In this document: piece after piece, positions 27,954-49,510 of the stretch
Layout: every line of letters begins with the position of its first letter
Numbering within the stretch: position 1 is the stretch's first letter
Source of the DNA: Candidatus Cryosericum hinesii
GTDB lineage: Bacteria; Caldisericota; Caldisericia; Cryosericales; Cryosericaceae
Assembly: GCF_003570985.1 (NCBI RefSeq)
Contig: NZ_QXIW01000007.1
Coordinates: forward strand, 22,066 to 86,065
Reading direction: 5' to 3'
DNA: 64,000 nt
Notes under the pieces: generated by a model
Seen by the model: the letters and a program-made list of their open reading frames with translations, nothing else
Told to the model about the DNA's origin: nothing
Databases searched by the model: none
Position numbers and translations under genes: made by a program

Positions 27954-28112
27954 GGCTCGTGCCGTCCTGATCTGACGAACGAGAGTCTTCGCTCATGAAG
28001 GCAGGCGACCAACGGTTTGCATCGGCCGGCCGGAACGTGCCGTAGAGAATGCCCTCGGAGCTGACTCGCCGCAATCAGAAGAATCCGGCCTGCTGCCCGT
28101 TGAACCGCTTGG

Positions 28113-28994
28113 CTAGATTGTATCATGTTGACCAATGTCGAAGATTAGCGCGGTGATCTCCAGACTCTTGACAGGTAGATCGTACAGGCACTCTATTGAG
28201 CAGTAGGTACAGTAATCGTCTTTGGGGTTCCACTGCAAGTTGTTTCTAAAAGGGTGGAGCAGGTTGGTTCTCCCGAAAAGGGCATGGTTGCCGTCTTCCA
28301 ATAATGATCTTACCAGGGCGTCATTGGACAACCCCAGATTCTTGCCAAGTTGCCCGCTGACATAGTCAATATTCGAACCATCGTGGCAGTGGAGGGCAGA
28401 AGTGATACCGTCTATAAGTGGTTTTACAATCGTGGAACAGGCTATACGGAGAGAAGAAGGGCTGTTTATGACTATCGATATGCCCCACGGCTTTGCCACG
28501 TGGCACCTTTGCCTCAAAGTGATGTTTCCCATTTTGGCAGCATACCAGACGCTTGCACAACTATGAAGAGCAAAAGTGGTCAGTTCAAACGACAAAGACG
28601 CCAAGGGTCTGTTGTCTTGCCCTTCGATAGATAAGAACCTATCGTCTAGCAGCAAGTACTCATATTGATGTAGAACAGGGGAGGACAACTGCACCGGGCA
28701 GTCCCGAGAAATCTGGTAAGAGCGTTTGAAGACCAACCCTTTCGTAGTCGCATTTGACAATTGGGCGGGACCAATGTTGTAGATCAGTAGATTCTCGACA
28801 TCTGCATACTTGCTAATCGGGGATCCATATGCTGCATAGAGGATCCTACCATCCACTGAAGGAAGTCCCGCTACAGCCGACCTCAGTTGATTCCTGAACT
28901 CAAGAAGCCAGCCCTTCGGTTCAAAGGGTATGCGTGCGACGCTCCATGCTGTCACAGACGAGGTACCTGTCTCAATGTAGTAGTTGGAACTCAT
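28113..28994 (-). CDS. hypothetical protein in the EVE/GIY-YIG cassette
   Basis: A 293-residue soluble protein with no family I recognise. It begins SSNYYIETGTSSVTAWSVAR and ends with a possible zinc site, YCTYCSIECL (three Cys in eight residues), before a hydrophobic LEITALIFDIG. The frame extends to 29018, but ATG 28994 has GGGAGGG five bases upstream. A minus-strand TACAAT (complement of 28117-28122) after its end region may be the promoter of the GIY-YIG gene. Its position between a small HTH-like gene and the GIY-YIG gene on one strand suggests one functional group. Confidence 0.65.
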   Translation of the reverse strand: MSSNYYIETGTSSVTAWSVARIPFEPKGWLLEFRNQLRSAVAGLPSVDGRILYAAYGSPISKYADVENLLIYNIGPAQLSNATTKGLVFKRSYQISRDCPVQLSSPVLHQYEYLLLDDRFLSIEGQDNRPLASLSFELTTFALHSCASVWYAAKMGNITLRQRCHVAKPWGISIVINSPSSLRIACSTIVKPLIDGITSALHCHDGSNIDYVSGQLGKNLGLSNDALVRSLLEDGNHALFGRTNLLHPFRNNLQWNPKDDYCTYCSIECLYDLPVKSLEITALIFDIGQHDTI

Positions 28995-29073
28995 GACGCC
29001 CTCCCTGCCAGCCGCCAAAACCTAATGCCAATTGAACAGCTTGGTGAGTACTATGTGCGGGAATCTCCAGGCC

Positions 29074-29337
29074 TCACTTCTTCTGCGACATTAGGGTCTC
29101 TCTTAAGGATTCCCTATAGTCCAGGTACGCGTTGGCGATCTCTGCCCCCACGCCATCACCGGACCGCTCGTCGATTGCTCGAACGAATGACTTGGGCAGG
29201 ATGCGGCTACGGGCCTTTCTCGCGCTGTAGACATCCACGTAGTCGACCCGTGCCATGATCGCGAAGTCAGCAGGGGTAATCTCCAGACGGGTCAGATAGG
29301 CGACAAATGGGTTGTTCAAATCATCTTTGTTGATCAT
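29074..29337 (-). CDS. small HTH-like protein
   Basis: An 87-residue protein. ATG 29337 has GGAGG eight bases upstream. TRLEITPADFAIMARVDYVD followed by YSARKARSRILPKSFVRAI has the pattern of a helix-turn-helix of the Xre type: a turn after ADFA and a second helix rich in Arg/Lys. This is weak evidence, and no close family is recalled. As the first gene of the minus-strand cassette it could regulate it. Upstream, from about 29440, lies an unusually AT-rich segment with a minus-strand TATAAT that may hold the cassette promoter. Confidence 0.55.
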   Translation of the reverse strand: MINKDDLNNPFVAYLTRLEITPADFAIMARVDYVDVYSARKARSRILPKSFVRAIDERSGDGVGAEIANAYLDYRESLRETLMSQKK

Positions 29338-29439
29338 GTCTCATTCCTCCATGTCTGTCAGACTCATGCCATATGTATCGCTCGGACTGTGTTTGCCTGG
29401 TCACTTTCCGGCTCGTCGACCAAGCCATTTCGTCATCTG

Positions 29440-29525
29440 CTGGGACTTCTTTGTATATCTCTTTCTCTACTGTATATATTTTCCTTTCTTCTATTATATA
29501 CCTATTTTAATATATTTCTGCCAGA
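29440..29525. other. AT-rich segment in the 757-base gene-free stretch 29338-30094
   Basis: From 29450 to about 29520 the sequence changes to pyrimidine/AT-rich DNA with several TATATA and TTTAATATATT runs, unlike anything else in the window. On the minus strand it contains TATAAT (complement of 29493-29498), a good -10 for the cassette starting at 29337, although no clear -35 is seen. The rest of the gap holds direct-repeat copy 1 (29762-29990) and no gene that I can support; reading frames overlapping the repeat are not conserved between its copies. Confidence 0.5.
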
Positions 29526-29761
29526 AGACTATGAACTGAGACCGAACCCACGAAAAAGCCGGCAACCCTACCCACTTCCGAATTGTTCAAGTTTCGTATG
29601 TCCTTCGTGTCTTTCGGCGTGCTGGGGGTCTAACCCACGGAGGTACGAGAAATGCCACTCCGTAGTACGGGTGGCTAGACGTACGATCTCATCGGCATGT
29701 ACGGACAGGCAACAATCGGACATCTCAAGAATACGTTCGCCAGTGGCGAACTGGCATGGGA

Positions 29762-29990
29762 GGCAGCTGTTTCCAAAATGGAAATGGTTCAACCTGAAAG
29801 ATGGCGTCGGACGTCTCGAGAGGTTGAGTTCAATAGCATGGATGCAATCTTGGCTCGCTGAGTGGTGTCTGACCATGTTGTTGACGCCAACAAAATGGTC
29901 GGTCTTGGCTCTGGTCATCGGGGGGAGTTGAGTATGTGGTGCGGACACGACACGCCGGACCATTTCGCTGCGATTCTTTGATGATGCAAC
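29762..29990 (+). repeat. long direct repeat, copy 1 (about 229 bp)
   Basis: Runs from GGCAGCTGTTTCCAAAATGG to ATGATGCAAC and matches 35518-35741 in the same orientation over its whole length, with scattered substitutions and small indels. Shared stretches include AAATGGTTCAACCTGAAAGA and GGTCGGTCTTGGCTCTGGTC. Single-base length differences shift the reading frame between copies, so coding is unlikely. No terminal inverted repeats were noticed. It flanks the left side of the zinc-ribbon/RecQ helicase module. Confidence 0.85.
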
Positions 29991-30094
29991 TCGACGATTC
30001 ATCCTGGCGACGTGGAAAGGTTCGTGGATCCACCCGGTACTCCTATCCCCGTGGATTCCACTATCAATGCAAGTGACCACCTGAGCAGGAGTTA

Positions 30095-30379
30095 GTGCTT
30101 GCTCATCCGCTAACGAGAAGCCTGTGGCTCATTGAGGTACCCACCCTGAAGCTGGCATCCAAGGAGGATGCTGGCAGAACAAAGTGGTATGTCGAATTCA
30201 GGCACGAAAGCATCGACTACCGACTGAGCATGACCGATGATTACTTCTTGCAGCGCCTACGGGGGCAGGGCAAGCTTCACGACGGCCCACGACCAGAAAA
30301 GTATGTCTGTATCAGCATCGGCGTATACTTTGAACCCAGGGACGCCCACTACAAGCTGGCTGCTGCAGTCCTACCGTAG
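30095..30379 (+). pseudogene. probable remnant of a dual-OB-domain protein
   Basis: A 94-residue frame (GTG start, no clear ribosome site) reading PLTRSLWLIEVPTLKLASKE, YRLSMTDDYFLQRLR and YVCISIGVYFE, ending AHYKLAAAVLP. These blocks resemble the C-terminal half of the dual-OB defence-associated family, whose proteins are two to three times longer. Just upstream, in another frame, FVDPPGTPIPVDSTINASDH (about 30020-30079) could be the preceding segment, which would mean a frameshift. The remnant begins right after direct-repeat copy 1, so insertion of that element may have truncated the gene. The family assignment is from memory and tentative. Confidence 0.4.
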
Positions 30380-30506
30380 ACGGGTTCTGACGATACAGAC
30401 GGTCTGGCTGGTCGGCGTCAGACAGCATTTGTGTGAGCCCGCGCTTGGGCTGTGTCTCTGTTGCGCTTAGTCGCCAGTTGTGGTCTGCATGGCCTCACGC
30501 GCTTCG

Positions 30507-30534
30507 TTGACAGTGGGAACCGAGTTCCTACACT
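30507..30534 (+). promoter_or_regulatory. candidate promoter of the RecQ-fusion gene
   Basis: A consensus TTGACA at 30507-30512 and TACACT at 30529-30534, spaced 16 bases, lie about 70 bases before the chosen start at 30604. A second -10-like TATGCT (30534-30539) would need a 21-base spacer and is less likely. Within 30380-30603 no gene is seen. Confidence 0.4.
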
Positions 30535-30603
30535 ATGCTCAGAGTTGACGCAGCGTCGTCAGCGGTATCAGAAACGGGGCTGGTTGCAGTTGCGGAGGGC
30601 GCA

Positions 30604-33600
30604 ATGGGGAAAGTCTGTCCGATTTGTGGCGCAGAGATGGTGGTGCGCACGGCAAAGAGCGGCCCGTATGCCGGGCAACGGTTCTGGGGATGCACGGGGT
30701 ATCCTCACTGCAGAGGGATTCTGCCGTATGACGGAAACGGAGACGATACGCCGGTGAGCATGGCAGGAGATGTCTATCGCAACGCCGAGCCGATCGATCT
30801 GCCAAGGTCCGTCGTCTGCAAAGCGAGAACTACTTCTCAGCAGGTCACTGTGTTCGAGTCGATGGCTGTGCCGGCATCACTGCTCAAGTCGATATGCGAC
30901 GAAGACCTTTCGCTGGACCCGGCAGTGTGGCAGTACCTCGCCCAGTGGCGGGTCGACTTCCCTGCCAACAATCGCGCGCCTTCACTGGATACCGCCGCCC
31001 AACGTGTTCTCGCCGTGCTTGAGAAACTGGTGTTCCGAGGGCGGTTGACGCTGCTGTCTGAGTCGCTTGAGCAAAGGATAGCCCTGTTGTTTGGCATCAG
31101 ACTACCGAGTGCATTCTCGGTGGAAGATATCACTGGGCTGGTCGAACAATGGCCACTCGAGCTGCCACGTGTTGCGCTGGACAGTCCTACCGAGACAGCC
31201 TTCTATGACTCTGTTCTCCGAGTAGCGTCACAGCGCGATCCATGGCTCACCGTGGTCCCTCAAATAGAGATCGCGAGCCTGGTGGAATCTGCCGAATTGT
31301 CACCGGACAATACCAGGAGACGCGTGGACTTCATGGTATGGCATCTTGGCAACAAGCGCAAGTTCATTATTGAGATTGACGGAGCTCAACATTCCGACCA
31401 GCTGGCTGCCGATGCCGATCGCGATCGGGTCTTGAAAGAGGCAGGCTATGAAGTGCTGCGTATTCCTGCACATCAGGTCATGGCAGGGGCAGGGCCTGAG
31501 CAGGAGAACGTGCGAGACCTTCTATTTCAGATGTCGACACCTTTGGTTGAGAAGCCACGATCGGTGCAGACTGTGTACCTCAAGGCGGTCACGGTGGCAC
31601 ACCAAATCCAGGTACTCCTCGTACAAGGGATGAAATACGGACGCCTGTCGCTGACGGAACCAAAGTCCTGGTCTATCAGTACAGACCTGGATCGTCTTGC
31701 ATGGTTCGATCCAGAAATCACGCACCTGCTCGTCGCTGCGGCGATTGAAGACTTCGTCCGGCTTCTGCGGGCGGTTGCCAGCGTACATGGCTGCACTGTC
31801 GGGAAAGGCATGCCGACATGTGCGTTCGAGAATTCTGGTAAGGATGGTTTCACTGGAAGCGCGATGACCATCCTATTTGACCCTCGGTCCGAATCTGGGG
31901 AGTCATGCTTTCAACTCCTACCCTGTGCGTTGCCATTCCACGCCTCCATGGCATTCTACTCGCCCGTCGAGCAAGTGACTCCAGCGCTGTCTCCCGCCGA
32001 CAAAACCCTGCAGTTTCTCCTCCAGTACCTCTTTCGCTTTGAGAAGTTCGGTGACGAACAGCGGGATGCAGTCAAGCGTGTCTTGGCCGGCAAGGACACA
32101 TTGGCCCTTCTTCCCACCGGAGCAGGCAAGTCCCTGATCTACCAATTCGCATCGTTGCTGCTGCCGGGGAGAACAATCGTCATCGACCCACTTGTCTCAC
32201 TGATGGATGATCAGGTCGAGGGCCTGAGAGCAAAGGGTATTGACCGTATCACCGCCATCAATAGCAGCACATCGACAACAGTGCGCACCCAATTGATTCA
32301 GCTCCTGGGGCAGGGAGAGTATCTCTTTGCCTTCGTGTCGCCTGAACGCTTCCAGATCAAGGAGTTTCGATCAGCGCTGACTTCCCTGACCAGCCACACG
32401 TGTGTCTCCGTCATCGTCATCGACGAGGTACACTGCGTCTCTGAGTGGGGACACGACTTTCGTCCGGCGTATCTCAATCTGGGCCGCACTGCCCGCAGGT
32501 ACTGTGCTGCAGAAGACGGACATGTTCCTCCGATACTGGGACTTACCGGCACTGCGTCCCGAGCCGTCCTGCGCGATGTCCAGCGTGAACTACAGCTGCA
32601 AGATTTCGACTCGGTCATTACGCCCAAGACGTTCGACCGGGAGAATCTGCATTTCATGGTCTTCTCGGCGAAGTCATCCGAAAAGTGGGGCCGCCTGGAG
32701 GGGCTTCTTGGCCAACGCCTTCCTTCGTTGTTCGGCGTCACAACGGGTCAGTTCTTTGGCGCAAATGGCGACAATACCTACGCAGGTCTGGTGTTTTGCC
32801 CGCACGTCAATGGGTCCTTCGGCGTTGTCGAGATCGCCACAAAGCTGAACCAAGACCTCAGGATCCCCGTCAACTTCTACAGCGGGAAGGCCCCAGATGG
32901 GCATGGATCGGGAGAATACACGCGAGAGAAAACTGAGGTGGCGAAGAAGTTCAAGCGGAACAAGATTCCGGTGCTCGCCTGTACAAGTGCGTTTGGCATG
33001 GGCATCGACAAGCCGAACATCCGATATACGGTCCACTATGGAATACCAGGGTCGATCGAGTCCTTCTATCAGGAGGCCGGCCGTGCTGGTCGGGCAAGGA
33101 CTGAGCCACTGGAGCCAGCATACTGCTGCATTATTGTTTCCAACGACGATGCCGGCCGAGCAGAGAGATTGCTCTCGATGAGGACTTCTGTCGAAGAAGT
33201 GGCGCAGGTCGTCAAAGACACGAAGTACGCTGATTCTGACGACACGATTCGGAGGCTCTTCTTCCATGTGACGGCATTTCGCGGTGCTTCGACTGAACTT
33301 GATGAAGTTGCGCGCGTGCTTGAGCGTGTGGGGGCTGTAAGCATGAGGCATGACGCAGTTGCTGTACCGTTTGCCACCGCTCGGGCAGGTGGAGCCAGAG
33401 GTGACGCACGAATGCCAACCGAGAAGGCACTGCACCGGCTGCTTATCGTCGGTGTGATCAGCGACTACACTCTTGACTATTCCAAACAGCAATTCGAGGT
33501 CGACATCACGGGTGCCACAAGAACCGACATGGTCGCCTCCTACACCAAGTACGTTGAAAGCTATTTGGCCAGCATGCGTGCCCCGGAGCAGGCAAAGGCG

Positions 33601-34272
33601 GAGGCTCTTACGTCGCCTGATGGCAAGCCGTTTATTCTTGACCTGGTGCGCCTGCTGCTGGACTTCGTCTATCACGAGATCGAACAGTCTCGCCGCCGCA
33701 ATCTTGCTGAGATGCTCCGTGCTTGTCAGCATTCTGGCGAGGATGCCTTGCGCCAGAGTATCTTGCGCTACCTGGAGCGAACCCAGTTTTCAGACCAGCT
33801 GGACGCCGTTGTTGCGGACGCGCAAGCGGGAATCCGTCTCGTCCAGGACGTCGCAGGGTTGGTCGCGTCGCCGAACGAGGCCGCCGAACTCCGAGGCCAG
33901 GTGTCGCGCTATCTCAGCAGCTATGCAACACATCCCGGACTTCTGATGTTGCGGGCCGTCGCGGAAGCGATGTGTCGCGATGCGGATGCGGACATCGTTC
34001 ATCGTGAGTTCACCAATGCCATCGAGTCTGCTTTCACCGGGTTTGGTCTCGATCGCACGCAGGTGCTATACGAATTTGCCACATGGGGTGTTTCTACGAT
34101 CGGGGAACGGGACGGCCAATTGGGGTCCGAAATTGCCGAAGAATTGCTACGCCTGAGTCCCGATCGCGATTTCGCACGTCATCTCGTCAAGGCGGCACCG
34201 TCCATACGACACGTGCCTGCATGGTTCCTGATTGAACAGGCAAGCAGTCTGGCTGACAAGACTACGTCATAG
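30604..34272 (+). CDS. zinc ribbon - DUF559-like nuclease - RecQ helicase fusion
   Basis: A 1222-residue fusion. Residues 5-40 form a topoisomerase-type zinc ribbon (CPICGAEM...FWGCTGYPHCRG; Cys5, 8, 30, 36). Around 245-290 RRVDFMVW, FIIEIDGAQHSDQ, DADRDRVLKEAGYEVLRIP resembles the DUF559/Vsr-like nuclease fold. A RecQ-like motor follows: DEQRDAV, LPTGAGKSLIYQ (about 505), VIDEVHCVSEWGHDF (about 610, DEVH for DEAH), AFGMGIDKPNIRY and YQEAGRAGRAR (about 830). The last 350 residues are helical and unassigned. Probably unwinds and cuts DNA in defence. The frame opens at 30535, but ATG 30604 has GGAGGG five bases upstream and starts just before the ribbon. A small membrane protein gene follows 14 bases downstream. 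Confidence 0.9.
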   Translation: MGKVCPICGAEMVVRTAKSGPYAGQRFWGCTGYPHCRGILPYDGNGDDTPVSMAGDVYRNAEPIDLPRSVVCKARTTSQQVTVFESMAVPASLLKSICDEDLSLDPAVWQYLAQWRVDFPANNRAPSLDTAAQRVLAVLEKLVFRGRLTLLSESLEQRIALLFGIRLPSAFSVEDITGLVEQWPLELPRVALDSPTETAFYDSVLRVASQRDPWLTVVPQIEIASLVESAELSPDNTRRRVDFMVWHLGNKRKFIIEIDGAQHSDQLAADADRDRVLKEAGYEVLRIPAHQVMAGAGPEQENVRDLLFQMSTPLVEKPRSVQTVYLKAVTVAHQIQVLLVQGMKYGRLSLTEPKSWSISTDLDRLAWFDPEITHLLVAAAIEDFVRLLRAVASVHGCTVGKGMPTCAFENSGKDGFTGSAMTILFDPRSESGESCFQLLPCALPFHASMAFYSPVEQVTPALSPADKTLQFLLQYLFRFEKFGDEQRDAVKRVLAGKDTLALLPTGAGKSLIYQFASLLLPGRTIVIDPLVSLMDDQVEGLRAKGIDRITAINSSTSTTVRTQLIQLLGQGEYLFAFVSPERFQIKEFRSALTSLTSHTCVSVIVIDEVHCVSEWGHDFRPAYLNLGRTARRYCAAEDGHVPPILGLTGTASRAVLRDVQRELQLQDFDSVITPKTFDRENLHFMVFSAKSSEKWGRLEGLLGQRLPSLFGVTTGQFFGANGDNTYAGLVFCPHVNGSFGVVEIATKLNQDLRIPVNFYSGKAPDGHGSGEYTREKTEVAKKFKRNKIPVLACTSAFGMGIDKPNIRYTVHYGIPGSIESFYQEAGRAGRARTEPLEPAYCCIIVSNDDAGRAERLLSMRTSVEEVAQVVKDTKYADSDDTIRRLFFHVTAFRGASTELDEVARVLERVGAVSMRHDAVAVPFATARAGGARGDARMPTEKALHRLLIVGVISDYTLDYSKQQFEVDITGATRTDMVASYTKYVESYLASMRAPEQAKAEALTSPDGKPFILDLVRLLLDFVYHEIEQSRRRNLAEMLRACQHSGEDALRQSILRYLERTQFSDQLDAVVADAQAGIRLVQDVAGLVASPNEAAELRGQVSRYLSSYATHPGLLMLRAVAEAMCRDADADIVHREFTNAIESAFTGFGLDRTQVLYEFATWGVSTIGERDGQLGSEIAEELLRLSPDRDFARHLVKAAPSIRHVPAWFLIEQASSLADKTTS

Positions 34273-34286
34273 GGAGGGGGAGCGAC

Positions 34287-34751
34287 ATGACAGATGAAGA
34301 GAGATTCTTGAAAGCAGAGGAGGCAGCGACCCGGCTCGCTGAATCGCTGACGCGTCTCAAGGAAGAAATGGGGTCCTACCGCGAAGCGGCTGGTCGGCTC
34401 GACGGAGCAGTGGCAGCAGTTTCCGGGCTTTCTGACCAGGTCGTGAACGTGGCTCAAAGCGCCCAACAGGGGCTGGACGCGATTCGCAGTGCGGGTGGCC
34501 CTGAACTACTAACGCGCATCGACGCTGCCAGACAGGATATTGGTCATGTGCAATCTGACATGAACAGGCAACTGGAGCCACTGCCGGGTATGGGGGGTGA
34601 CATCACCGGGCTTGATCAGGCCGTTCATGCCGTCTCAGAGAAGGTGATAGCTGTCGGCAAGAACGTCCAGGCACTTCTGTGGCTCACCATCTCGGCACTT
34701 GTCATTTCCGTGGCCGCTCTCGTCATGGTCATTGTCGCGCGCTTGCCCTAG
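34287..34751 (+). CDS. tail-anchored coiled-coil protein
   Basis: A 154-residue protein, helical through residues 1-125 with heptad-like Ala/Leu spacing (ATRLAESLTRLKEEMGSYRE, VVNVAQSAQQGLDAI). It ends in a single membrane helix, LLWLTISALVISVAALVMVI, and only four residues after it, so it is a C-tail anchor or short-tail inner-membrane protein. ATG 34287 has GGGAGGGGGAG upstream and lies 14 bases after the helicase stop, indicating cotranscription. It resembles the signalling helices of chemoreceptors in composition only. In a defence module it could couple DNA sensing to the membrane; that is speculation. Confidence 0.8.
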   Translation: MTDEERFLKAEEAATRLAESLTRLKEEMGSYREAAGRLDGAVAAVSGLSDQVVNVAQSAQQGLDAIRSAGGPELLTRIDAARQDIGHVQSDMNRQLEPLPGMGGDITGLDQAVHAVSEKVIAVGKNVQALLWLTISALVISVAALVMVIVARLP

Positions 34752-34809
34752 GTAGCTGCAGTGAGGGGTCCCAAACCAGGGGCTCCTCATACGTCTTTAC
34801 GTGACGGGA

Positions 34810-35346
34810 TCAGGAGGCCTGCTGCTGTCTGTTGATCGCTTCGCCGATCGATGCAGCGAGCTGCTTCGGATCATAGGCGGCCTGCGCCCTGACGTGTAGG
34901 AGAGGCAATCCAGCTTTTGCCAGGACTCCGTCCACGAACGCGTCACGTTCTTGCCGGTCTTCGCGGTCATGTGAGGAATCGTCCAGTTCTATGGCGAGGA
35001 CAGGTGAGATCGTACTCTTCTCAAAGAGCGCAAAATCGACGGACTTGCGGTCCACCTTGTTGTGAAATGCCAGGTAAGATCCAGTTCCGTTCTTGACAGT
35101 CACGAGGTTGTTGAGTGATACTTGTGGGAAGATGTAGTACTTGGAACTGTCGGTCACCTGTTCCAGCACGCCGAAGAACGAGCGCTCCGCCCTGGACATC
35201 AGGTACCGCTTGAGGACGTAGGGCAGGTCCCCAAGTTTCTCCGAAGGTGTTCCCTTGTTTCGAGAGCCTTTAGTAGACTGAAGTACGAGAAGAGCCACGA
35301 CAATCAGGATGATCCACCAATACTGTTTGAGAAGCGTCAGCAACAT
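34810..35346 (-). CDS. membrane-anchored DUF2726 protein
   Basis: A 178-residue protein with an N-terminal membrane helix (YWWIILIVVALLVL, about 10-23) and a DUF2726 domain: LMSRAERSFFGVLEQV, YYIFPQVSLNNLV, VDFALFEKSTISPVLAIELD, DSSHDREDRQERDAFVDGVL and AGLPLLHVRA. DUF2726 belongs to the restriction-endonuclease-like fold group; the Asp of VDFALF and the Glu-Leu-Asp of AIELDD could be nuclease residues. ATG 35346 follows AAGGGGG at a good distance; an upstream in-frame start exists but would lack a site. It is convergent with the tail-anchored gene and lies within the long direct repeats, so it may belong to the same module. Confidence 0.8.
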   Translation of the reverse strand: MLLTLLKQYWWIILIVVALLVLQSTKGSRNKGTPSEKLGDLPYVLKRYLMSRAERSFFGVLEQVTDSSKYYIFPQVSLNNLVTVKNGTGSYLAFHNKVDRKSVDFALFEKSTISPVLAIELDDSSHDREDRQERDAFVDGVLAKAGLPLLHVRAQAAYDPKQLAASIGEAINRQQQAS

Positions 35347-35517
35347 GCTTACACCCCCTTCAGGAATCTGCAACAATCACATGATACCACATCTACCATA
35401 TGGACAGCATACTGGAATCGTCTGGCTAGACGGATCATTTGGGGTAGACCGGCAATTTCAAGAGCGCGAGGGTGACGGGAAGGTCTTGTGCCAGACCTCG
35501 CATTGAAGCCATCACAC

Positions 35518-35741
35518 GGCAGTTGTTTCCAAAATGGAAATGGTTCAACCTGAAAGATGACGTCGGACGTCTCGACAGATCGAGTCCAACAGCATGGGTG
35601 CAATCCTGGCTCGCTGAGCGGGGTTGACCATTCTGTTGACGCCAACAAGATGGTCGGTCTTGGCTCTGGTCATCAGGGGGTGAGGATGTAGTGCTGGCAC
35701 GACACGCCAGACCATTTCGCTACGATTCTTCATAATGCAAC
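35518..35741 (+). repeat. long direct repeat, copy 2 (about 224 bp)
   Basis: Second copy of the element at 29762-29990, same orientation, from GGCAGTTGTTTCCAAAATGG to CATAATGCAAC. The gene-free stretch 35347-35797 consists of about 170 bases without recognised features, this repeat, and the AbiE promoter/operator that starts eight bases after the repeat. The two copies bound a segment of about 5.5 kb with three genes. Confidence 0.85.
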
Positions 35742-35748
35742 TTAGCTC

Positions 35749-35786
35749 TTGCCATGACGTGACCATTTTGATACAATAATGGTCAC
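35749..35786 (+). promoter_or_regulatory. AbiE promoter with embedded palindromic operator
   Basis: TTGCCA (35749-35754) and TACAAT (35772-35777) are spaced by 17 bases, an excellent sigma70 promoter. A perfect inverted repeat, GTGACCATT (35759-35767) and AATGGTCAC (35778-35786), brackets the -10 box. Binding there would block RNA polymerase. AbiEi antitoxins are known to repress their own operons through inverted repeats, so this is its likely operator. Confidence 0.8.
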
Positions 35787-35797
35787 GAGGTGATGAG

Positions 35798-36418
35798 ATG
35801 AAACCAGATACGATCAAGCAAAGAATTGAAGAGCACATAAAACACGGTCACAAGAACAGCATCTACATGCTGACAGATTTCACTGACCTTGGGAACTACT
35901 CAGGCGTGAAAGAGGCCGTTTCAAAACTGACGGCAGAAGGCAAACTGCTTCGGGTGAAGAGGGGTATCTATGAGAGCCCATACTACAGCTCCTTTTTGCA
36001 GGAAGAGGTGGAAGCATCGCCTCTCGATGTTGCGAAGAAGATAGCGAGGAAGAACCGGTGGACGATCGCGCCAAGTGGAAATACCGCATTGAACGCGTTG
36101 GGACTCTCAACGCAGGTCCCGGCGGAGTATCACTTTGTGAGCAGCGGGACAAACAAGGAAGTAGACCTAGGAGGGATCAAGCTCTATTTCAAGCACGTTC
36201 CGCCGAAGGAAATAGCGGGGATTTCCGCCAAGAGCGCATTGATCATCGAAGCCATCAAGGCTCTCGGCAGGACAGGAATGGATGATTCTGTGAGAGCCAA
36301 AATCGCTGGGGTGTTGTCTAGTACCGAGAAGGAAAGACTGGCCCGTGAATCCAAGACGAGCAGAGTGTGGGTGGCCGAAGAAATCAGGAAGATCTTGGCG
36401 GCGACATGTACCAAATAG
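35798..36418 (+). CDS. AbiEi-type antitoxin / transcriptional repressor (type IV TA, DUF6088-like)
   Basis: A 206-residue protein with an N-terminal winged HTH (NSIYMLTDFTDLGNYSGVKE, AVSKLTAEGKLLRVKRGIYE) and a C-terminal AbiEi-like domain (TIAPSGNTALNALGLSTQVP, KSALIIEAIKALG). In the AbiE family the antitoxin counteracts the nucleotidyltransferase toxin without binding it and represses the operon. ATG 35798 is preceded by GAGGTGAT. The following toxin gene overlaps its 3' end by 13 bases. A perfect operator covers the promoter. The pair stands immediately outside the right copy of the long direct repeat. Confidence 0.88.
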   Translation: MKPDTIKQRIEEHIKHGHKNSIYMLTDFTDLGNYSGVKEAVSKLTAEGKLLRVKRGIYESPYYSSFLQEEVEASPLDVAKKIARKNRWTIAPSGNTALNALGLSTQVPAEYHFVSSGTNKEVDLGGIKLYFKHVPPKEIAGISAKSALIIEAIKALGRTGMDDSVRAKIAGVLSSTEKERLARESKTSRVWVAEEIRKILAATCTK

Positions 36419-37422
36419 CAAACGAGGACGCCAACAATAGGGGCGAACTCTTTAATAGAACGGCTCGCAGAATGGGCGTCAGCGAGACGATTGTGGAGAA
36501 GGACTTCTGGGTATGCTTTCTCCTGGATCTGCTTTTCCATCATAGCCAGGATGCGATGCACTTCTGTTTCAAAGGGGGCACGAGTCTATCCAAGGGATAT
36601 GGCGTCATACGACGCTTCTCGGAGGACATCGATCTGATCCTGGACTGGCGGCTGCTGGGATATTCCAGAGATGAACCATGGGCTGAGAGAACGAACAACC
36701 AGCAAGATCATCTTAGCGAGGAAATGGGTGAAAGGACAAACAAGTACTTGACTGAAGTGCTCATGCCAGAAATCGACGGTCTGGCCGGAACATACGTCAG
36801 AGAACAGGTACAACTTCATGTCGAAGGAAACGGCGAGCAGACCATCTGTTTCGCCTACCCGCACCTCTTCCATGATTCATACGTCATGCCGGAAGTACGA
36901 TTAGAGATCGGGGCTTTGGCAGCATGGACTCCATGTGGAGATAAGATGGTTCACCCATATGCTGCCGACTACTACCCTGATTTGTTCAAGCAAGCCAATA
37001 CCGCTATTCGGACAGTGGAAGCCAGGAGAACGTTTTGGGAGAAGGCGACCATTCTTCACAGAGAAGCGCACCGGACGGATGGGAGACTGCCGGAACGGTA
37101 CTCACGGCATTACTATGACCTGTATATGCTGTCGCAAACACCCATTAAGGAAGAGGCACTTGAGGATCTGGCATTACTGAAAACGGTAGTCTGCTTCAAT
37201 GAGAAATTTTATCGTTCATCGTGGGCACGGTACGAGGACGCGACGCCGGAGAAGATCAGACTCGTGCCGTCAGATGCAACAATCGCAATGCTTGCGGAGG
37301 ATTACCGCAACATGCAGGAAATGCTCTTTGGAGACAAAATCCCATTTGGCACAATCATGCAAGGATTAGGAAAACTCGAGTCAGAAATGCATCAGTTGGA
37401 CGCGACAACTGGAGTTGTGTAA
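36406..37422 (+). CDS. AbiEii-type nucleotidyltransferase toxin
   Basis: A 338-residue toxin of the DNA polymerase beta-like nucleotidyltransferase fold. Key motifs: FKGGTSLSKGYGVIRRFSED then IDLIL, giving the GGTSLSK nucleotide site and the Asp-x-Asp metal pair (EDIDL), and later EVRLEIGA and SRHYYDLYML. Relatives modify tRNA 3' ends and halt growth during phage infection. The frame opens at 36367, but ATG 36406 matches the usual N-terminus and overlaps the antitoxin stop; its ribosome site is poor, so it is probably translated by coupling, which would keep toxin low. It is the second of two AbiE pairs' toxins in the window to carry this motif set. Confidence 0.9.
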   Translation: MYQIANEDANNRGELFNRTARRMGVSETIVEKDFWVCFLLDLLFHHSQDAMHFCFKGGTSLSKGYGVIRRFSEDIDLILDWRLLGYSRDEPWAERTNNQQDHLSEEMGERTNKYLTEVLMPEIDGLAGTYVREQVQLHVEGNGEQTICFAYPHLFHDSYVMPEVRLEIGALAAWTPCGDKMVHPYAADYYPDLFKQANTAIRTVEARRTFWEKATILHREAHRTDGRLPERYSRHYYDLYMLSQTPIKEEALEDLALLKTVVCFNEKFYRSSWARYEDATPEKIRLVPSDATIAMLAEDYRNMQEMLFGDKIPFGTIMQGLGKLESEMHQLDATTGVV

Positions 37423-37634
37423 TTGAGAACACCCAAGTCTTGGCAGAGGCACAAGGCTGCTTCCTCGATGTCGCTTCTGGCGAGTTGTATCGCGGCCGTA
37501 TGGGCAGGGACTACGCAGTGGCCCCGCGATGCAATGTCATGCTGGCGGCCATGCAAAACGGTGATACGGTACCAGCTGCACTTCCAAAAGGGAGAAGGGC
37601 AACACTCACGATCCGGTATCTCTTACCGAGATAA
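37423..37634 (+). other. unassigned open frame in the 474-base gap 37423-37896
   Basis: One frame through 37423-37634 reads AEAQGCFLDVASGELYRGRM, then DYAVAPRCNVMLAAMQNGDT and RRATLTIRYLLPR before a stop. The composition looks protein-like, and the end resembles a domain terminus, but there is no convincing start codon or ribosome site and the toxin stop lies immediately before it. It may be a fragment of an older gene. A TATACT at 37771-37776 could be the -10 of the DegV gene; no -35 fits. Nothing else is seen in this gap. Confidence 0.25.
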
Positions 37635-37896
37635 AGCTGGTTTCGCGAATCACTCCAGCCAAGAGAGGAAGGTCATAGCACGGTCTGATAATTGCCGGCA
37701 ACTGTTGTGAGAAGTCATCACGTAGTCTGAGTTCATTGACGGGAGAGGCAACAGGAGAGGCACACGGTGCTATACTACACTGTGATTGGTGGCTGACGCG
37801 CCCTCTGTCACGGGAGTGTCAGTTGATGAGATCGTCACCCGGGGTATGCTGCTGTGGGCAAGGGAACGGATGCACAAGCGGAGAAAGGAGCCGGCA

Positions 37897-38745
37897 ATGG
37901 CTGTCCACATAGTAACAGACAGCACGGCATGTCTGCCGCAAGCGTATGTTGAAGAGCACGGCGTCACCGTCGTTCCCCTCAGGGTCTCGCTTGACGGCGA
38001 GTACTTTCGCGACGGCATCGACATTACGAACGACGAGTTCTACCGCCGTCTCGTGGCGGGCGCGAAAGGGGGCAGTACGCAGCCGTCGCCTGATGAATTC
38101 GCTTCGTCATATCGTGCCATTCTGGACAAGGACCCTGCAGGAGACATCGTGTCGCTTCACGTCAGTTCACGCCTTTCGGGGACGCTCAATGCGGCTCTCA
38201 CCGGGCGCAACCAGCTGGACACGGTTCACGTGCAGCTGGTAGATACCTGGAATGTTGGTCTCGGTCTCGGATTTCCGGTGATGCGAGCAGTGGAGCTCGC
38301 CGAAGCCGGGGCGCCGCTGTGGCAGGTCGTCGCTGAGGCGGAGGCGCTGTGTCTGCGGACCCATACCTACTTCGTGCTCGACTCTCTCACGTATATCGAG
38401 AGGGGCGGGCGCATTGGAAAGGCTGCTGCCATCACTGCCAACATCCTGAAGATCAAGCCCATTCTTACCTTTACCCAGGGAGTCACGGATGTCGAGGACC
38501 GTCCCCGCACCAAGAAGGTTGCGCTGGAACATCTGTGGGCAATCATCGACAAGCATGTGCAGAAGGGGATCGAATACATCGGGTTCCACTACGGCACCAA
38601 CCGGGCCGAGGTTGAGGGGTTCCAGCATGAGTTCACCTCCAGGTACAACCTGCCGAGCATTCTGGTCCAGCTTGGACCTGTTCTCGGAAACCAGGTGGGG
38701 CCCGATATCCTCGGAGTCATCATCTCGGACAAGAAGCCGCAATAG
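37897..38745 (+). CDS. DegV family fatty-acid-binding protein
   Basis: A 282-residue, two-domain DegV protein that would bind a fatty acid for phosphorylation by the FakA kinase. It begins VHIVTDSTACLPQAYVEEHG (strand plus the TDST lipid-head motif), with GGSTQPSPDEF, VSLHVSSRLSGTLNAAL and the C-terminal SLTYIERGGRIGKAAA and YIGFHYGTN blocks, all diagnostic. The frame extends to 37786, but ATG 37897 has AAAGGAG six bases upstream. No fakA gene is nearby in this window. It is followed by the PQQ-propeller gene on the same strand. Confidence 0.93.
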   Translation: MAVHIVTDSTACLPQAYVEEHGVTVVPLRVSLDGEYFRDGIDITNDEFYRRLVAGAKGGSTQPSPDEFASSYRAILDKDPAGDIVSLHVSSRLSGTLNAALTGRNQLDTVHVQLVDTWNVGLGLGFPVMRAVELAEAGAPLWQVVAEAEALCLRTHTYFVLDSLTYIERGGRIGKAAAITANILKIKPILTFTQGVTDVEDRPRTKKVALEHLWAIIDKHVQKGIEYIGFHYGTNRAEVEGFQHEFTSRYNLPSILVQLGPVLGNQVGPDILGVIISDKKPQ

Positions 38746-38773
38746 CACCGTCACTGCACGGGCCCCTGGCTCG

Positions 38774-40057
38774 ATGAAGACAGAGAACACGACAAGAACG
38801 CAAAGAAAGAAGGAGATCCCTGTCAAGAGATCCGTCGCAGTATTCTTGATAGCCTTGGTTTTGTTTTCTGTCGTTCAGGGGACAAGAGGAGTAGAAATCT
38901 TGAAAGCAGAAACCCAGCCAATATGGCCAATGGAAGGGTACAATACAAAGCATACGGGGCAATGCCCGTATGATACATCAGAGAACAATGGGAATCTCAA
39001 GTGGAAGTTCAAGACAGGCGAGAAGATCTGGTCCTCCCAAGCCATTAGTTCAGATGGAACGATTTATACTGGTTCAAGGGACCGCTACCTCTATGCGCTG
39101 AACCCTGACGGCACGCTCAGGTGGAAGTTCAAGACAGGTGGCTGGATTGTCTCCTCACCTGCTGTTGCTGCAGATGGAACAGTTTACGTAGGTTCAAGAG
39201 ACGAGTATCTCTATGCAATTAACCCTGACGGCACGCTTAAGTGGAAGTTTGAAACAGGCGACGTGATTTACTCTTCCCCTGCTATTGCCTCAGATGGAAC
39301 GATCTACGTGGGAGCAAATATCAACCACCTTGACATCTTCAACTTTTTGCAAAGCTACCTCTACGCACTTAATCCTGATGGAACGCTTAAGTGGAAGTTT
39401 AAAGCAGGTAGAAGGATCCAGACTTCCCCAGCCATTTCTCCAGATGGAACAGTTTATGTAGGGTCCAATGACCGCTATCTCTATGCACTTCATCCTGATG
39501 GTACGCTCAGGTGGAAGTATAAGACAAATGGCAGGATCTGGTCTTCCCCTGCTATTGCAGGAGATGGAACAATCTACGTAGGATCAAATGATCGCTACCT
39601 CTATGCACTTCATCCTGATGGTACGCTCAGGTGGAAATATGAGACAGGCCACTGGATTATCTCTGCGTCTGTCTCTTCTCCAGCCATTTCTTTGGACGGA
39701 ACAATCTATGTAGCGTCATGGGACGGCTACCTGTCTGCAATAAGCCCTGACGGCAATCTTAAGTGGACATTCAAGACAGGTTGGCCCAGTGCTGGTCCAT
39801 TCCAGAGCCTTCTAAAGAAAATGCCTTCCTGGTCGACGGCAGGTCTTGATGAGATTACCTCTTCACCAGTCATTTCTTTGGAGGGAACAATCTACATAGG
39901 GTCAAACAACAACTACCTCTACGCACTGAATGCTGATGGCACACTCAAGTGGAAATTCAAGACAGGCGACGGGATTTTCTCTTCACCAAGAATTTCCTCC
40001 GACGGCACCGTCTATGTAGGGTCTTGGGACGGTTACCTTTATGCAATTGGCGGCTAG
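38774..40057 (+). CDS. exported PQQ-like beta-propeller protein with eight near-identical repeats
   Basis: About 427 residues. A Lys/Arg-rich start and hydrophobic stretch (SVAVFLIALVLFSVVQG) look like a signal peptide or anchor. The rest is eight PQQ-like blades of about 40 residues, each following LKWKFKTG..I.SSPAIS.DGTIYVGS..RYLYALNPDGT; blades 3, 6 and 7 carry insertions. Such propellers act as assembly scaffolds (BamB-like) or enzymes; no quinoprotein active-site residues are evident. The start is unsettled: ATG 38774 lacks a ribosome site, whereas AAAGGAG near 38813 has no usable start codon at the right distance. Blades are similar also in DNA, pointing to recent duplication or ongoing homogenisation. 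Confidence 0.8.
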   Translation: MKTENTTRTQRKKEIPVKRSVAVFLIALVLFSVVQGTRGVEILKAETQPIWPMEGYNTKHTGQCPYDTSENNGNLKWKFKTGEKIWSSQAISSDGTIYTGSRDRYLYALNPDGTLRWKFKTGGWIVSSPAVAADGTVYVGSRDEYLYAINPDGTLKWKFETGDVIYSSPAIASDGTIYVGANINHLDIFNFLQSYLYALNPDGTLKWKFKAGRRIQTSPAISPDGTVYVGSNDRYLYALHPDGTLRWKYKTNGRIWSSPAIAGDGTIYVGSNDRYLYALHPDGTLRWKYETGHWIISASVSSPAISLDGTIYVASWDGYLSAISPDGNLKWTFKTGWPSAGPFQSLLKKMPSWSTAGLDEITSSPVISLEGTIYIGSNNNYLYALNADGTLKWKFKTGDGIFSSPRISSDGTVYVGSWDGYLYAIGG

Positions 40058-47871: not shown

Positions 47872-48738
47872 CTATCTTGTGAGTAATGCTTCCTCCAGTG
47901 CCTTCAGTTGTGCAGGGAGGACCTCGTGCACGTTTGTGCTGAAGGCTTCAAGTGCCTGTTCAGTCTCGATGAAGGGCCGCAGGTCAGCGGCGACTTGCTG
48001 GGCATCGAGAGATGCTGCCTTGTCTGCTGCGCTCCGGACGACGCTGACTGCGCTGTCTGCTCCAAGCAGAGCAAGAACTCGTGGCCAGAGCGGCTGGAGC
48101 TTCCATTCCTGCTGTTGCGCTTTCTGAAGAAACCACATGAGGTCAAAGACATCACGCCCTTTGAATGGTTGTGTCTGGGAGGATCCTCTCGTGTAGTCCC
48201 GTCCAAGGAAGGCAGCCAGCTTGCTGGCGAAGAGCGTGGGGAGGTCGTACGCCCGGACGAAGAACATCGTCTTGGCTGTGCTGACAGGGCTCACCTGTGT
48301 GCCGTAGATACCGGTTGACTCAGCTGCAATGTCACAGCGAAGCAGGAGGTTGGGGGTGTCAGCAGACGAGTGGACCAGTCCCAGCTGGCGCAGGACCGGG
48401 AAGACCAGTGTGACCGACGTTCCGTTTCCGCTCACTCTCGTGGTCATGTGACGATACTGGAGCGCTTTGCTGACGTATTCCCGGAGATCTGCCACGAACG
48501 ACACAACGTCTGGCTGCCCAGGGACATCGAAGTCCAGGTCTTCAGACAACCGGGGGAGTCCATATAGCTTGCGCAGACACGTGCCACCGGTGAACAGGTA
48601 GTTTCGATACTGCGGATGGTTGTAGACGAAGGCCAGGACCTCATCCTGCAGAACCTCTTTCAATCTGATGCGCAGGAAGAGAGGGTTGAGATTCTTGCCT
48701 GACTGAGCCATGATGGACGCAAGTCGTTCCTCGATCAT
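47872..48738 (-). CDS. AbiEii-family nucleotidyltransferase toxin
   Basis: A 288-residue nucleotidyltransferase: YLFTGGTCLRKLYGLPRLSE followed by DLDFDV supplies the GGT(S/C)LxK nucleotide site and the DxDxD metal cluster. PTLFASKLAAFLGR and FKGRDVFDLMWFL are the C-terminal conserved blocks of the AbiEii/DUF1814 family. It starts at the ATG overlapping the stop of the upstream antitoxin by four bases (ATGA). In comparison with the toxin at 36406 it is shorter and only distantly alike, so the two are separate acquisitions, not a duplication. Expected effect: growth arrest when not neutralised, as in abortive infection. Confidence 0.92.
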   Translation of the reverse strand: MIEERLASIMAQSGKNLNPLFLRIRLKEVLQDEVLAFVYNHPQYRNYLFTGGTCLRKLYGLPRLSEDLDFDVPGQPDVVSFVADLREYVSKALQYRHMTTRVSGNGTSVTLVFPVLRQLGLVHSSADTPNLLLRCDIAAESTGIYGTQVSPVSTAKTMFFVRAYDLPTLFASKLAAFLGRDYTRGSSQTQPFKGRDVFDLMWFLQKAQQQEWKLQPLWPRVLALLGADSAVSVVRSAADKAASLDAQQVAADLRPFIETEQALEAFSTNVHEVLPAQLKALEEALLTR

Positions 48739-49391
48739 ACGATTCCCTCCGCGGTCAGAATCGACAGGATGCGCTTCATCTTTGGGACGCCGCTGGTGCG
48801 GATAATCGCGACAAGCCTCTTCTTCTCCGACGGGCGCAACGCATCCCAGTTGAGCCGCCCGGTCTCGAGCAGGTAGGAACGCATCGCGCTCGACGTGCTG
48901 AACGGCCGTAGATAGAGCATGTCGAACAGCGCCTTGGCGGGAGAAGCAATGCGGACTTCGAGGCCACGATATGCCTCAAGACCATATCCTGTGAACAGAT
49001 CGCTTCGGATGCTCCGGTAGACAAACCTCCCGAGGGATGTCGCGTACATGCGAGGAGTCTTGGTCGTGATGCAGGTCAGGGCAAACGGCGATTCGGGGAT
49101 CATGCCTGCTTTCTCCAGGACATACTCAAGCGACAGGTAGGAGGGAGCGCGCACGATGCTCGAGAGATATTCAAGGTACTGCCGTGTCTGCTCGGGGCTG
49201 GACTGCGCTGCTCGCCAGGCCGCTGTCGGTGCATAGAGACCGCTGCGCAGTCTGAGGAGATCCCCCGTGGTCTGCATGCGCTGGACGCGATAGTCAAGCA
49301 TGGCGGGGGAGACACCCAGGAGGACACCAAGGTTCTGCTTGGTGACGACGGGCATTGTTGCAATTGTTTCCAGTGTACGAGAGCCAATCAT
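48735..49391 (-). CDS. AbiEi-family antitoxin / repressor
   Basis: A 218-residue protein with a winged HTH at the N-terminus (ATMPVVTKQNLGVLLGVSPA, YRVQRMQTTGDLLRLRSGLY) and an AbiEi C-terminal domain containing SPFALTCITTKTPRM, LEVRIASPAKALFDMLYLRP. The frame is open to 49493, but ATG 49391 has GGAG six bases upstream and a full promoter and operator just before it. It overlaps the toxin start as ATGA. It neutralises the nucleotidyltransferase and should repress the operon by binding the inverted repeat at 49392-49439. Confidence 0.9.
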   Translation of the reverse strand: MIGSRTLETIATMPVVTKQNLGVLLGVSPAMLDYRVQRMQTTGDLLRLRSGLYAPTAAWRAAQSSPEQTRQYLEYLSSIVRAPSYLSLEYVLEKAGMIPESPFALTCITTKTPRMYATSLGRFVYRSIRSDLFTGYGLEAYRGLEVRIASPAKALFDMLYLRPFSTSSAMRSYLLETGRLNWDALRPSEKKRLVAIIRTSGVPKMKRILSILTAEGIV

Positions 49392-49453
49392 GTTCTGCTC
49401 CAGTATTACTAAACTTCTTTCATAATAATGGAGCAGAACGTTACTCCTGTCAA
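49392..49453 (-). promoter_or_regulatory. promoter and palindromic operator of the second AbiE operon
   Basis: On the minus strand TTGACA (complement of 49448-49453) and CATTAT (49425-49430) are 17 bases apart. Perfect 11-base arms GTTCTGCTCCA (49392-49402) and TGGAGCAGAAC (49429-49439) flank the start region; allowing mismatches they extend to about 20 bases each, with a centre between them. The right arm overlaps the spacer and the left arm covers the ribosome site, so a bound AbiEi would block both initiation and elongation. Confidence 0.8.
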
Positions 49454-49480
49454 GAAGGTTGTGACACCTGCCAAAGCAGC

Positions 49481-49510
49481 ACGCCCCGGCCATTGTCCTG
49501 ACCGGGGCGT
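49481..49510. terminator. hairpin downstream of hsp20
   Basis: ACGCCCCGG (49481-49489) and CCGGGGCGT (49502-49510), separated by 12 bases, lie just beyond the hsp20 stop on the minus strand and upstream of the AbiE promoter. There is no strong T run, so it is a probable but not certain terminator. Confidence 0.55.

Follow-up and report, generated by a model that had tools for sequence, protein, structure and literature searches.

A nuclease-RecQ helicase and its coiled-coil partner in Candidatus Cryosericum hinesii: members of a widespread two-gene family with a probable role in defence

The window considered here is a stretch of 64,000 nucleotides from Candidatus Cryosericum hinesii (contig NZ_QXIW01000007.1). 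Two adjacent genes on its forward strand encode a helicase-nuclease of 1222 residues, P0001 (30604-34272), and a coiled-coil protein of 154 residues with a C-terminal membrane anchor, P0002 (34287-34751). They belong to a real two-gene family, composed of a nuclease-RecQ protein and a coiled-coil anchor protein, which is widespread in bacteria and archaea and is most probably used in defence. The preferred reading, to which a probability of roughly 55% is given, is that P0001 and P0002 make up a single operon and work as a unit, a horizontally transferred anti-invader system of defence islands that would act as a membrane-tethered nuclease-helicase.

Related loci number 86 and are spread over more than 15 phyla of bacteria, two archaea and plasmids. 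The genome scan with P0001 alone as the query gave no relatives, and a four-sequence alignment was too divergent; a working scan was obtained from a two-sequence alignment. When one genome per species was scanned, 80 loci were recovered across a wide range of phyla, two archaea included; this is a lower bound because the scan rested on two short motifs. A coiled-coil open reading frame (ORF) lies downstream of the helicase in all 81 loci with readable downstream sequence, and in 74 it was called directly after the helicase, mostly with an overlap of a few base pairs or a gap of less than 20 bp. In the remaining seven, the partner was found by a hidden Markov model (HMM) in L035, L049, L079 and L083, was recognised by reading in L092 and L104, and in L031 is a 391-residue coiled-coil protein with no anchor. 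The L035 partner is located about 1 kb further downstream with one ORF in between, and the helicase frame is broken in L049, L079 and L083. Plasmid relatives in Rhodothermus, Salinibacter, Haliscomenobacter, Escherichia coli and Raoultella carry the small coiled-coil gene right behind the helicase.

An HMM built from 15 partners, with P0002 left out, detects P0002 at E=1e-20. Over the 1034 ORFs of the loci, the same model finds the partner genes and one second copy beside the Rhodothermus pair, and it has zero matches among 1243 control ORFs. When 72,556 plasmids were compared with P0002, only Rhodothermus genes adjoining the same helicase type matched. P0002 is thus both directly downstream of its helicase and homologous to the partners of other members. 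The literature search, from which subscription papers were mostly out of reach, found no paper describing the pair and no named system with it, and the preliminary description had known of no named system that unites all three genes; the novelty of the two-gene family is provisional. Locus L031 (2788-11692, plasmid pDrdI of Deinococcus wulumuqiensis) represents a distant variant of the pair, with a helicase carrying MZB and phosphoribosyltransferase (PRTase) domains, followed by a RecQ protein and the anchorless coiled-coil protein. On plasmid pRMAR01 of Rhodothermus marinus (L026, 12110-15593, reverse strand), the second tail-anchored coiled-coil gene, a partner homologue (1.3e-11) convergent to the pair, adjoins the gene of a 987-residue, weakly AAA-like protein, which may be another protein served by this tether.

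The P0001 gene starts with an ATG behind GGAGGG, and the encoded domains follow in the order of zinc ribbon, DUF559 (Vsr-like PD-(D/E)XK) nuclease, middle domain, RecQ core and helical C-terminal domain. The zinc ribbon and the nuclease-like domain, which the preliminary description had read by eye in a 1222-residue helicase, are both recovered by Pfam, together with the RecQ core. The ribbon is of the topoisomerase type (residues 3-39; 30610-30720) and matches Zn_ribbon_Top1 (PF01396) at 32.9 bits with a cut-off of 32; a Cys4 pattern within the first 120 residues is present in 33 of 65 helicase family members. The nuclease domain (residues about 194-297; 31183-31494) is identified by profile, motif and structure match. 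Pfam DUF559 covers residues 243-297 at 39.9 bits (cut-off 20.6), and the intact motif is D242...E257-x-D259-G-x-x-H263, whose residues are kept in 95% (D), 98% (E), 94% (D) and 95% (H) of the 65 full-length members. DUF559 is also matched in 52 of 53 N-terminal regions of the family. The AlphaFold model of residues 40-480 has a mean predicted local distance difference test (pLDDT) score of 89.6, and its best PDB match is the putative endonuclease 3hrl, with which the profile search agrees. Profile and motif both place the domain among the DUF559/Vsr-like PD-(D/E)XK nucleases, and its sequence suggests that it cuts DNA.

The RecQ-family core (residues about 470-870; 32011-33213) is matched by Pfam DEAD and Helicase_C and by the NCBIfam model TIGR00614 (259.3 bits, above the cut-off of 219.8), and its best solved relatives are E. 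coli RecQ (1oyw) and human RECQ5. The Walker A sequence LLPTGAGKS contains K509, and G506, G508, K509 and S510 are found in 100% of the 65 members. The C-terminal domain (residues 871-1222; 33214-34269) has a fold without a close PDB counterpart: the fold search of the PDB gave no match at E<=0.001, and the profile search of the PDB gave no significant match either. The AlphaFold model of residues 833-1222 reaches a pLDDT of 94.4. The domain is thus conserved, with a confidently predicted fold of an unfamiliar type, and it is a candidate binding site for P0002. Upstream of the gene, a sigma-70-like sequence (TTGACA-16-TACACT; 30507-30534, forward strand) has 10 of 12 matches; as the promoter of P0001 it is suggestive only, with five promoter-like sites in the region against 2.6 expected.

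P0002 begins 14 bp past the P0001 stop, with a strong Shine-Dalgarno sequence in front. As the preliminary description had proposed for the gene behind the helicase, it encodes a coiled-coil protein with a hydrophobic C-terminal segment: a transmembrane segment is predicted at residues 133-151 (34683-34739; mean Kyte-Doolittle value 2.77), and the best 19-residue hydrophobic window stops three residues short of the C-terminus. The hydrophobic periodicity is 3.39, and none of 2000 shuffles was as strong. Conservation of the partners is concentrated in the N-terminal ~75 residues (FLxAEE..A..L...L..L..E..SY), beyond which a rod of varying length leads to the C-terminal anchor, and the partners range from 116 to 500 residues, an about fourfold spread. 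By a simple hydropathy rule, 48 of the 81 partners are tail-anchored, compared with 6 of 478 background ORFs of 100-350 residues from the same loci (Fisher p about 1e-40), and the partners of L091 and L100 fall just short of the rule. Those without an anchor mostly have short basic tails, several of them amphipathic-looking (FDRIFGRYRSI, WEGIFGRRKG), and the anchor type switches at least nine times along the helicase tree. Such replacement of spans by basic or amphipathic-looking tails, together with the repeated switching, suggests selection for attachment itself and not for one particular membrane span. A short basic C-terminal motif like LPERIRSKHGL is common to non-anchored partners, mostly from Actinomycetota (L055, L061, L067, L068, L092, L105 and L108-L111).

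The tethered nuclease-helicase mechanism appears to be the best fit to this anatomy. P0001 would bind incoming DNA through its zinc ribbon and RecQ core, unwind the bound DNA at the expense of ATP and cleave it by means of the built-in DUF559/Vsr-like nuclease. P0002 would bind P0001 through the conserved N-terminal part and hold it at the inner membrane by means of the variable-length rod and the membrane anchor, and the tethered P0001 would meet invading DNA at its entry point.

A role against invaders is suggested by the gene neighbourhood and by the mobility of the pair. The PADLOC models matched at 1e-15 number 98 for 140 genes on the flanks of the pair and 6 for 140 control genes, which were taken from 15 stretches of other genomes and were not genome-matched; the flanking matches include Gabija, type I, III and IIG restriction, CARF-RelE, DRT, HEC-09, PDC and SoFic. 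Mobility is indicated by the plasmid copies, by the insertion of the pair beside P0003, the gene that follows it in the window, by the presence of full-length P0001 in a single one of the 15 genomes from the host genus, and by the helicase tree, in which phyla are intermingled (30 changes for 21 phylum labels, where the minimum is 20). A phage origin of the pair was considered and rejected: phage records match the helicase core only, and viral contigs gave no relative.

Several points weigh against the tethered anti-invader system. The defence neighbourhood is guilt by association, and the figures of 98 and 6 count overlapping PADLOC models rather than proteins; together with the unmatched control, this makes the difference a strong contrast and not a measured enrichment. 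About a third of the partners have no transmembrane segment, and the tails of the Actinomycetota partners (e.g., LPERIRSKHGL) are ambiguous and could have no affinity for the membrane. The tether could therefore bind something else.

Of the other explanations, abortive infection survives best, although it is unlikely. According to this model, P0001 senses phage DNA, and the oligomerising, tail-anchored P0002 damages the membrane and kills the cell. Several defence systems contain small single-span membrane effectors, and a terminal membrane span in more than half of the partners agrees with such a role. However, the pair persists despite the spanless partners, the switching of the anchor and the wide range of lengths, a variation that a pore former would not easily tolerate. 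The nuclease site of the helicase is intact, and therefore a killer partner is not needed. The short basic tails of the non-anchored partners and the changes of anchor type favour a tether over a pore.

An accessory or housekeeping function in DNA repair, competence or plasmid maintenance instead of defence is improbable. The usual roles of RecQ proteins are recombination and repair, some copies of the pair reside on plasmids, and the catalytic core of P0001 is the same as that of the housekeeping RecQ/BLM family. P0001 differs from the latter by the extra zinc ribbon, the DUF559 nuclease, another C-terminal domain and the coiled-coil partner, and its identity as the housekeeping RecQ was rejected, with the equivalog model TIGR01389 scoring 275.3 bits against a cut-off of 640.2. 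The family is scattered over phyla and is flanked by defence genes far more than the controls. The preliminary description would have been contradicted by a helicase found alone as a widespread housekeeping gene; the rarity of the helicase among the congeners shows that it is not a housekeeping gene.

A toxin-antitoxin system of the RqlHI/PsyrTA type, in which the helicase-nuclease is toxic and is restrained by P0002, is quite improbable. RqlHI and PsyrTA likewise place a RecQ-family helicase in a defence context, and the PADLOC PsyrT model matches the P0001 core at 212 bits. According to the accessible part of the RqlHI report, the RecQ-like helicase RqlH is genotoxic unless RqlI is present, and its toxicity maps to the PRTase domain (PMC4670107). 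This domain is missing from P0001, in which no Pribosyltran match was found at E<=0.1, and no DprA gene adjoins P0001, whose neighbours are the coiled-coil protein and the DUF2726 protein P0003; the pair is accordingly not assigned to PsyrTA or RqlHI. Conversely, a DUF559 nuclease and a coiled-coil membrane partner are not described in the same part of that report (PMC4670107).

The toxin-antitoxin explanation draws further on an enteric version of the locus, present in E. coli, Klebsiella and Raoultella, which consists of a DprA-like gene, a gene for a 1558-residue protein and a tail-anchored coiled-coil gene. In the large protein, an HAD domain and a weak ShosT-like PRTase part are fused ahead of the DUF559, RecQ and C-terminal domains. 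Of 5426 complete E. coli genomes, 7 have this version, which is found both on plasmids and on chromosomes; examples are L027 (5678-11801, E. coli plasmid pXJW9B263-1) and L029 (Raoultella), which look like a fusion of a ShosTA-type part with the pair. In the enteric homologue, DprA matches ShosA (227 bits) and the N-terminus of the large protein weakly resembles ShosT, whereas the ShosTA-like part is absent from the pair of the window. Since DprA and the coiled-coil protein occur together in the enteric version, the latter is not simply an antitoxin substitute. A DprA-PRTase pair protects against T7 and lambda (PMC9122126). Because the toxicity of RqlH resides in its PRTase domain, such a DprA-PRTase pair is antiphage and the enteric version carries both parts, the nuclease-RecQ-tether unit may be a chassis that sometimes carries a ShosTA/PsyrTA-type toxin part.

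Two other groups of systems resemble the pair. DpdF is also a RecQ-like helicase, and the PADLOC DpdF models score highest on P0001 (291 bits); PADLOC labels the helicase of the pair as DpdF. This identity was rejected: NCBIfam NF041063 reaches 158.3 bits, far below its cut-off of 550. Other Dpd genes, such as DpdA, were found neither in the nine neighbours scanned by PADLOC nor by eye in the ORF list of the window, not all ORFs of which were searched with Dpd models. PDLC02868, a 1078-residue 'DpdF' model of PADLOC, aligns over 1000 residues of the enteric nuclease-RecQ protein, the DUF559 part included, and may describe the nuclease-RecQ family rather than true DpdF. The logic of a coiled coil plus a nuclease is shared by a group of type IV restriction systems (PMC11090510); these are of the McrBC type with a predicted RNA target, whereas the pair of the window is RecQ/DUF559.

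Downstream of the pair, the convergent gene P0003 (34810-35346, reverse strand) encodes a membrane protein of 178 residues with an N-terminal hydrophobic segment and a DUF2726 domain (106 bits, cut-off 24.7). Two direct repeats of 217 bp, 88% identical, enclose the three genes: repeat comparison identifies the left one (29762-29978) as the extra copy and the right one (35518-35730) as the copy that congeners share beside P0003 and a DegV gene. They have only two copies in the 1.94-Mb assembly, with partial copies in a few congeners, and a multi-copy element was thus ruled out. An AbiE pair recognised by profile matches (DUF6088/AbiEi and AbiEii; 35798-37422) follows the right repeat. The membrane protein, the long direct repeats and the AbiE pair had been noted in the preliminary description, whose details are all confirmed and which joined the three genes in one defence module; the part concerning the helicase-nuclease and its membrane partner stands as defence-like, and P0003 is not a part of the system. 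The three-gene module is hardly credible: all three genes do lie between the repeats, and P0003 and the P0001 nuclease domain come from related families (P0001 reaches 23.6 bits with DUF2726), but P0003 occurs at the same site without the helicase in three congeners and is absent from every other helicase locus. The co-occurrence that had been expected of all three families thus holds for the coiled-coil gene, and in a phmmer search of 1034 ORFs, which covered the surroundings of the 86 loci and the window, DUF2726 genes turned up nowhere but in the window.

In these congeners (G002, G006 and G008), P0003 has 78-90% identity, and there are at most helicase-core matches to P0001, the full-length helicase being absent. 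In G006 and G008, P0003 adjoins one copy of the repeat as well as the same DegV gene, and neither the AbiE pair nor the helicase pair is present. A NERD-like gene is located in G002 between P0003 and the same gene that occupies 28.1-29.0 kb of the window, and in G008 P0003 is followed by ATPase-like and glycosyltransferase-like genes (named by eye). As P0003 occurs there without the helicase, the repeats mark a variable insertion site and not a three-gene unit, and P0001 and P0002 are one cargo of this site in Candidatus Cryosericum hinesii. The region from the DegV gene to the 28.1-29.0 kb gene (28100-38800 of the window, and L128, L129 and L130) is an insertion hotspot of the genus, in which AbiE, the nuclease-RecQ pair, NERD-like, ATPase-like and glycosyltransferase-like genes alternate. 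No structured RNA was matched by Rfam within 26-39 kb.

The whole window is a defence island, in which there are also a type I restriction locus, genes for Mrr, HNH and NERD proteins and another AbiE-like pair. This second pair comprises an AbiEii-type nucleotidyltransferase gene with a regulator-like gene upstream (47872-49493, reverse strand). Another gene (7404-12359, reverse strand) encodes a 1651-residue protein in which a RecQ-type DEAD/Helicase_C core shares one polypeptide with a UvrD/Rep helicase; its N-terminal region has no Pfam match and reads by eye like a DEDD-type exonuclease, and the congeners G011 and G013 have ORFs of comparable length that contain a RecQ core.

Helicase-nuclease defence systems are already known. 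The literature searched contained no description of a membrane-anchored coiled-coil protein dedicated to a RecQ-nuclease, a partner that accompanies the helicase in all loci examined. A broader view, in which the coiled-coil-tethered nuclease-helicase is a widespread new class of immunity that cuts DNA at its entry and is fused in enteric bacteria with a ShosTA/PsyrTA-type part, is put forward tentatively. The pair, if rightly interpreted, also suggests that a separate system is concealed behind the stand-alone 'DpdF' and 'RecQ' annotations of defence islands. If the tethered anti-invader system is real, it would be a compact one of about 4.2 kb, spread over bacteria and archaea, and it would make directly testable whether some immune nucleases are stationed at the membrane, ready for DNA that is injected or conjugated.
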